Made by a program: the position numbers and the translations under genes. DNA of 64,000 nucleotides from Herbiconiux sp. L3-i23 (lineage in GTDB: Bacteria; Actinomycetota; Actinomycetes; Actinomycetales; Microbacteriaceae). Shown here piece by piece: positions 8,473-62,774 of this stretch. Numbering within the stretch: position 1 is the stretch's first letter; every line of letters begins with the position of its first letter. The notes under the pieces were generated by a model. That model was not told the origin of the DNA. It saw only the letters and a program-made list of their open reading frames with translations, and ran no database searches. Location: assembly GCF_023734115.1 (NCBI RefSeq), contig NZ_AP025737.1, positions 2,542,001 through 2,606,000 on the forward strand, read 5' to 3'.

Positions 8473-9253
8473 CCGGTCGTTGAGTAGCGACGAAGGAGCG
8501 TATCGAGACCACCGCTGGCACGTCCGGAACTGCGCTCTCGATGCGCTCCTTCGTCGCTTACTCGAGCCGTCTCGATACGGCGCTGGCGCGCCTACTCGAC
8601 GACCGAACTCCCGGTCGCCCGGTAGCGACGAAGGAGCGTATCGAAACGGGTCGAGTAAGCGAAGCGCACCGAGACCACCGCCGGGACGTCCGAAACTGCG
8701 CTCTCGATGCGCTCCTTCGTCGCTCACTCGAGCCTGGGCCCACCGCGCACGCTTGCGCGGGGGACTCGATACGGGCCTGGCGGCCCTACTCGACGACCGG
8801 GCGTGGACTCGCACCCTTCGTATCGCTTCGCTCAACGAGCGGCCCCTGACCCGGTCGTTGAGTAGCGACGAAGGAGCGTATCGAAACGGGTCGAGTAAGC
8901 GAAGCGCACCGAGACCATGGCGCCAACCTTCCGAACTGCGCTCTCGATGCGCTCCTTCGTCGCTTACTCGAGCCGTCTCGATACGGGCCTGGCGGCCCTA
9001 CTCGACGACCGGAATTGCGAACCGCGCCCTCCGTATCGCTTCGCTCAACGAGCGGGCCATACCCCCGGTCGTCGAGTAGCGACGAAGGAGCGTATCGAGA
9101 CGGGTCGAGTAAGCGAAGCGCATCGAGACCACCGCATCAACGTCCGGAACTTCGCTCTCGTTGCGCTCGTTCCTCGCTACTCGAGCCTCGGCCCACCGCG
9201 CACGCTTGCGCGGGGGACTCGATACGGCGCTGGCGCGCCTACTCGACGACCGG
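8473..9253. repeat. block of four composite intergenic repeats
   Basis: Four units lie at 8473-8605, 8611-8800, 8851-9012 and 9065-9253. Each opens with CCGGTCGTTGAGTAGCGACG (or a close variant) and closes with CTACTCGACGACCGG, so the ends are inverted copies of each other. Inside, GAAGGAGCGTATCGA and its complement recur, and units 2 and 4 share an insert containing CGCACGCTTGCGCG. A different fragment, the complement of CGTTGAGCGAAGCGATACG, sits between units 2/3 and 3/4. The block lies between convergent genes; open frames through it are artefacts of the repeats. Confidence 0.85.
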
Positions 9254-35246: not shown

Positions 35247-35782
35247 CTGACCAAATCAAGGAGATTTCGAGTCCAACGGCCTTGGATCCGCATGAACGTG
35301 TGACGACGGGCCGATTTCTCCTTGATTCGGTCAGTTCCTCGGGCACGATCGCTCGGTGGCTGACCAAATGCAGGAGATGTTGGTGCTCGAAGGCCCTCAA
35401 ACCCCCGAAACGCCTCTTCCAGACCAGAATCTCCTGCATTCGGTCGGAGACCGCTGGCCCAACGGCTGAATCGAGACCAGTCGACCCGTTCGGTATCGCT
35501 GTGCGCGGCGAGCCGGAGCGCGTCAGAGCTGGGGTCGACTTGCCGAATCAAGAAGATCTCGCACGAAACGGCCCCGGATCCGCATGAACGTGTGGTTAGC
35601 GGTCGCTTTTTCCTTGATTCGGTCAGTACCCCGCGGCGTGGGCGCTGGATGGCTGACCAAATGCAGGAGATTTTGTCGCCCGAGGGTTCCTAGAGCCCCG
35701 AAACGCCTCTTCCGGAGCAGAATCTCCTGCATTCGGTCAGAGACCGCTGGTTCACCGACTGGATCAAGACCAGTCGACGCGT
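35247..35782. repeat. 88-bp palindromic elements, cluster 1 (T1-T2-T1-T2)
   Basis: Four elements alternate: T1 at 35247-35334 and 35539-35626, T2 at 35360-35446 and 35653-35740. All begin CTGACCAAAT or a variant and end with the inverted copy, ATTCGGTCAG. T1 arms contain AATCAAGGAGA and an internal GGATCCGCATGAACGTGTGA; T2 arms contain AATGCAGGAGA. The two T1-T2 pairs are each followed by a related 42-bp flank (35447-35488, 35741-35782), so the cluster arose by duplication of a unit of about 240 bp. It lies between convergent genes. No ORF is credible here. Confidence 0.9.
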
Positions 35783-35820: not shown

Positions 35821-36399
35821 TCAGCGGGCGGCGGCGACCGAGGCGCGCAGCGGCGCGAGAGCGGCGGAGAGCTCCGCGAGTTCGCCGACGGCGCCCGAGA
35901 ACCGCTCGCGCTGCGAGTCGGTCGGCCGGAAGGCGCCGTCGTCATCGAGCTGGTTGCCCGGGAAGTTGATCTCGACGTTCAGCAGGGTCGGCACCAGCCC
36001 GAGTCCTGTGACGACCGGCTTGAGCGCGACGACTCCCCTGGTGCCGGCGGAGACACCGCCGTAGCTCACGAAGGTCACGGGCTTGCGGCGCCACTCGTGG
36101 TTCAGGTAGTCGAGGGCGTTCTTCAGCGCGGGCGAGAAGCTGTGGTTGTACTCGGGCGTCACGAAGACGAAGGCGTCGGCCTGCTCGACGCGCTCGCTCC
36201 ACGCGATGGTGTGATCGAACGTGTAGCGCCGCAGCACCGGGTGGTTGGGCTCGTTCATGAGCGGCAGATCGAGTTCGGCAAGGTCGACGAGGTCGATGTC
36301 GATGTCGTCGCGGAGGCCGAGTTCGTCGGTCACCCACTCGGCGATCGGCGGCCCGATCCTGCCGGGACGGACACTTCCGACGATGACCATGATGCGCAC
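35821..36399 (-). CDS. NADPH-dependent FMN reductase
   Basis: The 192-residue flavodoxin-like protein begins VRIMVIVGSVRPGRIGPPIAEWV (FMN phosphate loop) and contains FVTPEYNHSFSPALKNALDYL, the hallmark of the NADPH-dependent FMN/azo/quinone reductase family. It likely reduces quinones, azo compounds or chromate using NADPH. AAGGAG lies seven bases before the GTG at 36399, fixing the start. It is divergent from an aldo/keto reductase; a repeat array fills the gap. Confidence 0.92.
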   Translation of the reverse strand: MRIMVIVGSVRPGRIGPPIAEWVTDELGLRDDIDIDLVDLAELDLPLMNEPNHPVLRRYTFDHTIAWSERVEQADAFVFVTPEYNHSFSPALKNALDYLNHEWRRKPVTFVSYGGVSAGTRGVVALKPVVTGLGLVPTLLNVEINFPGNQLDDDGAFRPTDSQRERFSGAVGELAELSAALAPLRASVAAAR

Positions 36400-36500
36400 G
36401 AGTTGTCTCCTTCTTCCGGGCTCCACGGGCCCCGCGACTTCAACACCGACCGGGTTCCGGTATTCCCTCCGCCACCCGCCTCGGCCCCGCCCAGCACCGA

Positions 36501-36792
36501 GTGCACGGATCAGGACAATGTGCACGGATCAGGAGATCCGCCACGGATCAGGACCGTTTCGGCCGTTCGAGTCGGCGTGTCGCCGTCACAGTCCTGATCC
36601 GTGCACCGTCCTGACTCAGCACCGTCCTGATCCGTGCACACAGTCCTGATCGGTGCACACCGTCCTGATCCGTGCACACAGTCCTGATCGGCGCACATCG
36701 TCCTGATCCGTGCACACCGTCCTGATCCGTGCACACAGTCCTGATCCGCGCACACCGTCCTGATCGGTGCACATAGTCCTGGTCCGTGCACC
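36501..36792. repeat. converging array of 19-bp tandem repeats
   Basis: Three units of GTGCACGGATCAGGAC start at 36501, 36520 and about 36539. After a 36-bp gap, eleven units of the complement GTCCTGATCCGTGCAC run from 36591 to 36792, most at exactly 19 bp (starts 36643, 36662, 36681, 36700, 36719, 36738, 36757, 36776). Variable positions are few: the C/G after GATC and the CACA/CACC link. Each unit holds GATC and most hold GTGCAC. The array ends about 42 bp before the aldo/keto reductase start. There are no spacers, so it is not a CRISPR. Confidence 0.9.
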
Positions 36793-36833
36793 GGCGGGAT
36801 GCCGCCCGTCGGAGATGCTGGCGATAATGGCGT

Positions 36834-37655
36834 GTGACCTCCTCTCCTCTCCTTCCGATGAACGACGGATTCCTCATCCCGCAGGTCGGCCTCGGCGTCT
36901 ACAAGGTGGCTGATGACGACGCGGCGGACGTCGTGCGGGAGGCGATCCGCGTGGGCTACCGCCACGTCGACACCGCGAAGCTGTACGACAACGAAGAGGG
37001 TGTCGGACGCGGCATCCGCGAGTCGGATGTCCCCCGCGAAGACCTGTTCGTCACGACCAAGGTCTGGAACGACGACCACGCCTACGACCGGACGCTGCGC
37101 GCCTTCGACGCGAGTCTCGAGCGGCTCGCCCTCGACTACGTCGACCTCTACCTCATTCACTGGCCGGTGCCGAGCCAGGACCTCTACGTCGAGACCTGGA
37201 AGGCCCTCGTGCAGCTGCGCGAGTCGGGGCGGGTGCGGTCCATCGGCGTCTCGAACTTCACCGAGCGCCACATCGACCGGCTCGTCGACGAGACCGGCGT
37301 CACTCCCGCCGTCAATCAGATCGAGCTGCACCCGCGGCTGCCGCAGGCGGCGGTGCGCGAGTACGACGCCGCGAACGGCGTGCTCACCGAGGCGTGGTCG
37401 CCGCTCGCCAGAGGCGGTGTGCTGACCGACCCGACCCTCATCGAGATCGCGGCGAAGCACGACCGGTCGCCCGCCCAGGTGGTCATCCGCTGGCACATCG
37501 AGCTGGGCAACGTGGTCATCCCGAAGTCGGTCACCCCCGACCGCATCGCGTCGAACTTCGACGTGTTCGACTTCGCGCTCGACTCGGACGACCTCGCGAA
37601 GATCGCCACCCTCGACTCCGCCTCACGGACCGGGCGCGACCCCGACCTCGACTGA
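36834..37655 (+). CDS. aldo/keto reductase (2,5-diketo-D-gluconate reductase type)
   Basis: The 273-residue reductase has GYRHVDTAKLYDNE (catalytic Asp and Tyr), FVTTKVWN (Lys), LYLIHWP (His), and the cofactor segment VIPKSVTPDR. It reduces small aldehydes or ketosugars with NADPH. The GTG at 36834 follows GATAAT by five bases; an in-frame ATG at 36858 would also give a complete fold. The 19-bp repeat array lies directly upstream and could regulate it. It is similar to the AKR at 25697-26542. Confidence 0.92.
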   Translation: MTSSPLLPMNDGFLIPQVGLGVYKVADDDAADVVREAIRVGYRHVDTAKLYDNEEGVGRGIRESDVPREDLFVTTKVWNDDHAYDRTLRAFDASLERLALDYVDLYLIHWPVPSQDLYVETWKALVQLRESGRVRSIGVSNFTERHIDRLVDETGVTPAVNQIELHPRLPQAAVREYDAANGVLTEAWSPLARGGVLTDPTLIEIAAKHDRSPAQVVIRWHIELGNVVIPKSVTPDRIASNFDVFDFALDSDDLAKIATLDSASRTGRDPDLD

Positions 37656-52860: not shown

Positions 52861-53406
52861 CTGACCGAATCAAGGAGATCCGGGGCTGAATCGGCCCGGA
52901 TCCGCATGAACGTGTGACTGACGCCCGCTTTTTCCTTGATTTGGTCAGCGGAGGAGCGGCGGGCGCCTGCTCTCTGACCAAATGCAGGAGATTCTCGCGC
53001 CGCACCTTCGATTCGGGCGGAAATCAGGCCCGCAACGCCAAAATCTCCTGCATTTGGTCCTCCACCCGGCGGCCTTCGCGGGTTGAACTGACCGAATCAA
53101 GGAGAAGTGCTGCCTCGAGGGGCCCGGATCCGCATGAACGTGTGACTCGACCCTGCTTTTTCCTTGATTCGGTCAGTGGAGCAGCGGCCGGGCATCCGGT
53201 CTCCGATCAAATGCAGGAGATTTTCGCGATGACCTGCTCCTCGAGGTCGAAAACGGGCCCTTGCGGCCAAAATCTCCTGCATTTGGTCAGCCACCGCACC
53301 CCGGCGACGGCGGTCGACTGATCAAGTCAAGGAAAAGTGCCGCCTTGAGGGGCCCGGATCCGCATGAACGTGTGACTCGACCCCGCTTCTTCCTTGATTC
53401 GGTCAG
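52861..53406. repeat. 88-bp palindromic elements, cluster 2 (T1-T2-T1-T2-T1)
   Basis: Five elements alternate at starts 52861 (T1), 52974 (T2), 53088 (T1), 53203 (T2) and 53318 (T1), a steady 113-115 bp period with 25-27 bp spacers. Each is 87-89 bp with inverted ends: CTGACCGAATCAAGGAGA for T1, CTGACCAAATGCAGGAGA for T2. All three T1 copies share an intact GGATCCGCATGAACGTGTGA. The block fills the gap between mscL and a small minus-strand gene, both ending toward it. No gene is seen inside. Confidence 0.92.
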
Positions 53407-62583: not shown

Positions 62584-62774
62584 CGGACCGAATCAAGGAA
62601 AAAGCACGCCTCAGTCACAACTCCATGCCGATCCGAGCTCGCGCGACCCGAAATCTCCTTGATTTGGTCAGTCACAGCCCGAGGTGCCGAACCGAATGCA
62701 GGAGATTCTCGTCAGAAGGGGCGTATTCGGGCGCGAATCGGGGCTGCTCGGCAGAATCTCCTGCATTTGGTCCG
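62584..62774. repeat. 88-bp palindromic elements, cluster 3 (inverted T1 plus T2)
   Basis: A T1 element (62584-62671) lies in the opposite orientation to those at 35 and 53 kb: its complement reads CTGACCAAATCAAGGAGA at the start, and its internal GGATCGGCATGGAGTTGTGA has drifted. A T2 element (62688-62774) follows after 16 bp. The pair sits between the divergent DUF2975 and zinc-ribbon genes, so the family is not limited to convergent gaps. Confidence 0.88.

Follow-up and report, generated by a model that had tools for sequence, protein, structure and literature searches.

REP elements and REPINs, together with their RAYT partner (TnpA-REP, of the Y1 HUH type), are dispersed extragenic palindromes which lie mostly downstream of genes (PMC2817692, PMC3733652). 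The partner gene is located between inverted repeat copies, and the type of repeat follows the partner protein. CGTC-tagged REPs have been described without a dedicated transposase (PMC3733652), and BIMEs, according to work cited in PMC2817692, are inverted palindromic units around a protein-binding site at the 3′ ends of transcription units in enterobacteria.

The stretch of 64,000 nucleotides from Herbiconiux sp. L3-i23 analyzed here (contig NZ_AP025737.1, positions 2,542,001 to 2,606,000; referred to as the window) carries an array of 19-bp repeats which, judged by its sequence, is an enlarged copy of a dispersed palindromic element of ~105 bp (family 1). By analogy, the arrangement of this palindrome with a DUF559 gene is best read as a REP/RAYT-like pair with an unrelated enzyme: the palindromes are dispersed, extragenic and mostly downstream of genes, a DUF559 gene stands between inverted copies in four species, and the repeat type follows the protein. 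In contrast to REP/RAYT, the consensus (103–106 bp) has no GTAG or GTGG head and forms a multi-unit element instead of a palindrome of 20–40 bp, the partner is a predicted AbiEi-like/Vsr-like nuclease, and no Y1 gene was found in nine genomes of the genus (PF01797 in 0/9, with matches in control genomes), by which a RAYT partner was dismissed. CGTC-tagged REPs are likewise dispersed palindromes without RAYT, but CGTC is no constant tag here and a candidate partner gene is present. BIMEs are similar in their inverted units with a conserved middle, 3′-end bias and tandem enlargement, although their sequence is unrelated and they are described in enterobacteria. As far as a structural model allows, DUF559 proteins appear to share the nuclease fold and acidic residues with EDxHD/Vsr-like homing endonucleases (I-Bth0305I), whereas here an AbiEi-like N-terminus, of the type found in the AbiE toxin-antitoxin system, is fused to this part, and the gene is free-standing with palindromic repeats on either side. 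Finally, the elements resemble MITEs in being short, non-coding, dispersed and bounded by terminal inverted repeats, but no parent transposon was found and no target-site duplication was recognized by eye in the flanks, the empty sites being too diverged to align.

Array in the window and its copies in the genome

The array occupies window positions 36501–36791 in the divergent gap between an NADPH-FMN reductase gene and an aldo/keto reductase (AKR) gene (Table 1). The first-pass annotation, made from the sequence alone, had described three units pointing one way and eleven the other, mostly at exact 19-bp steps, with GTGCAC in most of them; all of this agrees with our results, as does the identity of both neighbors, except that one of the eleven units is degenerate. 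GATC, supposed to be in each unit, is present in all but the degenerate one and the last one (GGTCC). The 16-mer (≤3 mismatches) matches the window 13 times, always within the array, where 1.2 matches are expected, and 0/100 shuffles reached this count. A canonical core (36501–36606) is followed by a tandem tail (36607–36791), and it is for this tail that the previously suggested recent expansion holds. Since similarity is slightly higher between array units two steps apart (0.91) than between adjacent ones (0.86), the tail may have expanded by 38-bp pairs. A CRISPR, which had already been discounted, is rejected due to the 19-bp step and the absence of unique spacers.

Table 1. Positions of the array components, neighboring genes and family 2 palindromes in the window.
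Feature	Position	Strand	Basis or remark
Family 2 palindrome (AAATGCAGGAGAT ... AATCTCCTGCATT)	35367..35440		unit also flanks DUF559 gene L419
Family 2 palindrome	35660..35733		sequence
NADPH-dependent FMN reductase, neighbor outside the system	35821..36399	-	PF03358 E=2e-34; gene call
GGTATTCC motif, possible promoter element	36459..36466		nine-genome comparison; beside FMN reductase also in G002 and G007
Canonical ~106-bp inverted element, family 1, class B (units > > > ... <)	36501..36606	-	alignment with 12 further class-B elements of G000
Unit GTGCACGGATCAGGAC	36501..36516	+	16-mer match
Unit, 1 mismatch	36520..36535	+	16-mer match
Unit, 3 mismatches	36539..36554	+	16-mer match
Central motif CGGCGTGTCG (reverse complement CGACACGCCG)	36573..36582	-	sequence; cross-genus comparison
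Unit closing the canonical element	36591..36606	-	16-mer match
Tandem tail: 1 degenerate unit (~36607) and 9 units at exact 19-bp steps (36624 to 36776)	36607..36791	-	sequence
GCGATAATGG motif, possible -10 element	36821..36830	+	nine-genome comparison; kept upstream of AKR in most relatives
Aldo/keto reductase, DkgA-like, neighbor outside the system	36834..37655	+	PF00248 E=1e-57
Family 2 palindrome	52981..53054		sequence
Family 2 palindrome	53210..53283		sequence
Family 2 palindrome	62695..62767		sequence

Across the whole genome (3.18 Mb), where the first-pass annotation had proposed to look for the 16-mer, it occurs 254 times (≤3 mismatches) compared to 30 times for the reversed control. 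These matches form about 30 clusters in intergenic regions, which follow a fixed plan. Based on sequence searches, we count about 36 family-1 elements at about 30 intergenic loci and none within genes, using a simple codon-usage gene caller written for this analysis, which gave both expected neighbors in the window. The plan is an inverted element of ~106 bp in two classes, of which class A consists of a hairpin plus GCAACTCGCACAC and class B, including the window element, carries the CGACACGCCG motif; the orientation of the arms and of internal parts varies from copy to copy. Extra units exist at two other loci (L048 and L056). In a related genome, three elements follow each other inside 400 bp (L259, G004:C1:621766-622168), i.e., a duplication of the whole element.

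The array is, thus, no special feature of the two redox genes, and its initial description as an iteron-like array between them is not supported, as copies of the element to which the unit belongs are scattered over about 30 loci. Iterons proper sit at a replication origin; dnaA, found at C1:482, is separated from the array by more than 0.5 Mb in both directions around the chromosome, and an iteron or origin was rejected on account of this distance and the about 30 chromosomal loci. A regulatory array particular to the FMN reductase and AKR genes is very improbable in view of the other loci (about 30), and also because the divergent gap between these genes contains no family-1 element in G001, G002, G006 and G007. 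In favor of such a regulatory role, the array is flanked by GGTATTCC and GATAATGG, two possible promoter motifs that also occur in relatives, and an element likewise precedes this AKR gene in G004 and G005. In the latter two genomes the FMN reductase is missing from the locus and the element, a GGATCCGGA variant in G005, lies between an MFS gene and AKR; the order MFS, FMN reductase, AKR looks ancestral from the genes compared. Upstream of AKR in G008 (L331) and G003 (L335), the MFS-AKR gap contains unrelated palindromes and, therefore, seems to attract or tolerate such sequences.

Distribution and conservation of family 1

A covariance model (R1) built on 15 elements was run over nine genus genomes. 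It recovers the canonical element of the window (G000:C1:2578502-2578605, minus strand, E=6e-8), and family 1 was found in 7/9 genomes, with Amnibacterium/Naasia recognized by contig matches; G007 and G008 gave no match to the model. Exactly 103 nt are covered by 68 of 81 matches in three genomes. Blastn matches had limited the element to the genus, a view overturned by model matches in two other Microbacteriaceae genera, g17 (G024, G127) and g92 (G163). The latter are 102–116 nt long, mostly 103–104, and share the middle motif CGACACGCCG / CGGCGTGTCG with the genus elements, but their outer units differ (CGCGGATCCGGA, CGCGGATCCGCAGAAC, GCGCAATTCAGGAGATC). GCGACACGCCG exceeds its reversed control in several genera (57+52 vs. 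5+5 in G163, 49+48 vs. 7+9 in G155); in most genomes there is no such excess.

Of 16 elements in G003, 10 share a gene end with an element of G004 or G006. Orthologous elements at ispG and proS in all species appeared at first to be a further case, which was reduced once the same gene end was required. Of 16 orthologous pairs, 15 have the same orientation in both members (P=5e-4); the length changes by ≤1 bp, with the distance to the neighboring gene shifting by a median of 24 bp. Spacer identity is 0.53 in orthologous pairs and 0.52 in unrelated copies, i.e., saturated. This pattern of kept orientation and length beside saturated spacers suggests that the element has been inherited vertically, with its units and spacing under constraint, rather than decaying at random. 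The outer units hardly vary among 81 related elements, and the outer arms show 2 double changes compared to 0.7 in shuffles, meaning that substitutions are uncompensated and covariation is absent. The element arms are, thus, conserved as a sequence motif, and selection on the array, the other earlier suggestion, is borne out as conservation of a recognized sequence. An RNA hairpin under selection was discarded for lack of covariation.

Kept orientation and length despite shifting gene distance, near-invariant outer units beside saturated spacers and uncompensated arm changes would equally fit a domesticated chromosomal module, in which the elements are multi-site DNA-binding platforms for chromosome organization or 3′-end function and DUF559 is a regulator or structural binder no longer moving them. 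This is the main rival to spread by the nuclease, and we consider it unlikely. G007 and G008 live without the family, gains are lineage-specific, units differ between genera, and there is no orientation bias with replication; due to the last point, checked in three genomes, a polar chromosome-segregation signal was rejected, too. Spread by the nuclease would be the most likely mechanism.

In four genomes, the elements are found in 52 convergent, 49 tandem and 13 divergent contexts (convergent vs. divergent, P=1e-6), at a median distance of 45 bp from stop codons. Together with the good folding of the window element as a single strand (z=-7), this would suit a transcription terminator or an mRNA 3′-end hairpin, REP-like at the RNA level, which we nevertheless regard as improbable: no T-run follows the element, arm changes are uncompensated, arms and internal parts are inverted in some copies relative to others, the window copy sits between divergent genes, and the association with DUF559 would be left unexplained. 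Moreover, avoidance of promoters would give the same 3′-end bias. A known structured RNA was also rejected, as no Rfam match scored above the gathering score.

Scanning genome contigs for tandem TCCTGATCCG pairs detected true elements only in Amnibacterium/Naasia; the other matches inspected proved to be coding repeats or isolated tandem arrays and had no recognizable DUF559 motif at their loci. 'Plasmid 2' of Nocardia farcinica NCTC11134 (L069:4030-4240) contains an array of GTCCTGATCCGGCACC at 16-bp steps, the only one in that record. It includes the core TCCTGATCC of the window unit, an unproven kinship which may be mere resemblance.

DUF559 genes between matching repeats

In G000 (the genome of the window), G002, G004 and G006, a pair of inverted family-1 elements about 1 kb apart encloses a gene of ~300 aa. 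G000 and G002 share one such locus, and G004 and G006 share a separate, unrelated one. In G000, the gene covers C1:1237092-1237988 between the elements 1236958-1237063 and 1238086-1238191. Its product is a DUF559 protein (PF04480, E~1e-11) with an AbiEi-like N-terminus (PADLOC AbiEi models, E=2.5e-7, residues 4–96; the Pfam AbiEi_4 match is just under its cut-off), which we take to be of the winged-helix antitoxin/regulator type. The C-terminal part is predicted to be a Vsr-like/EDxHD (PD-(D/E)XK) nuclease domain. The protein is similar in sequence to the endonuclease-like PDB 3hrl, and the nuclease-core residues E199, D225, E235, D250 and R253 are kept in 48–49 of 49 proteins. A two-sequence AlphaFold2 model is weak overall (mean pLDDT 51); the best fold matches of its nuclease part are 3hrl (TM 0.81) and the I-Bth0305I homing endonuclease domain (TM 0.76 by target), and the best E-value of 0.0015 misses the threshold of 0.001. 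Likeness to a homing endonuclease is, hence, a lead and not proof.

DUF559 genes were listed in 14 genomes, of which 13, from Microbacteriaceae, have one, and 44 genes were taken with their flanks. A repeat common to both flanks (at least 30 bits within 300 bp) was found for 36/44 DUF559 genes, compared to 4/207 other genes of 600–1300 bp from nine of the same genomes (Fisher P=3e-31). As some of these control genes come from element-rich loci, the test is conservative. The flanking repeats differ between paralogs, agree within clades and broadly follow the protein tree (IQ-TREE, 44 proteins): TGCCACTT is found in L427/L422/L456, CGACTTGCC in L423/L428/L434, GATCAGGA or GATCCGGA in L049/L323/L440/L263/L288/L450/L452, and ACCAAATCAAGGAG in L451/L454. 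L409 of G008 is 59% identical to L419 of the window genome and both have the AAATGCAGGAG unit. Protein identity and flank similarity show a weak rank correlation (0.16), which nevertheless lies beyond all 2000 permutations; the protein tree is the better evidence, since the closest pairs may share flanks as orthologous loci. DUF559 proteins examined from G007 and G008, both without the element, fall in other clades. On the other hand, G003 has 31 model matches, yet no family-1-clade DUF559 gene was found there, and no flanking repeats were detected around the family-1-clade protein of G001 (L421). In Amnibacterium flavum (L183:4232-5188), the family-1 DUF559 gene appears frameshifted over the first ~58 codons relative to its relatives, and this copy may be decayed.

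Proposed repeat-nuclease pairs and further repeat families

We consider it probable that the array is an enlarged dispersed palindrome with its own DUF559 partner, which binds, cuts and spreads the copies. Nuclease binding, cutting and copying of the element are what we infer; the protein would probably bind the ~14-bp units and cut or nick in or near the element, so that repair may copy it into further intergenic sites, a role proposed likewise for RAYT transposases and REP elements. Most copies would end up at the 3′ ends of genes, the least harmful position, and from then on be inherited vertically, while the window copy, between two divergent promoters, would have been extended by nine or ten tandem units. 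The repeats around a DUF559 gene could also be its operators or terminators.

More tentatively, and with some doubt on our side, many separate pairs may exist in Microbacteriaceae and perhaps beyond, in which each AbiEi/Vsr-like homing-type nuclease binds, cuts and spreads its own clade-specific palindrome. They would form a previously unknown, independent counterpart of REP/RAYT. In the open literature searched, DUF559 genes with matching palindromes on their flanks did not turn up, and to our knowledge no partner enzyme has so far been described for REP-like repeats that lack a RAYT gene. If true, such pairs would supply this enzyme, give a role to a common uncharacterized family (DUF559/MTES_1575 fused to AbiEi) and offer many ready protein-site pairs for recognition studies; the origin of extragenic palindromes would become testable in harmless soil and plant bacteria.

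Of the three DUF559 genes in the genome of the window, L049 is matched to family 1, L419 to family 2 and L420 to family 3; the window itself appears to carry elements of two such pairs (families 1 and 2). As no family 2 copy was detected in 400 kb sampled from the genome, the five in the window represent a local cluster. At 35367-35733, 52981-53283 and 62695-62767 of the window, family 2 (AAATGCAGGAGATT ... AATCTCCTGCATT) is intermixed with CCTTGATTCGGTCAG units. Two further copies of family 3 were found in the sequence examined. At window positions 8765-9187, a 214-bp direct repeat is present in two copies with the inverted ends CTCGATACG/CGTATCGA, perhaps a further dispersed family.
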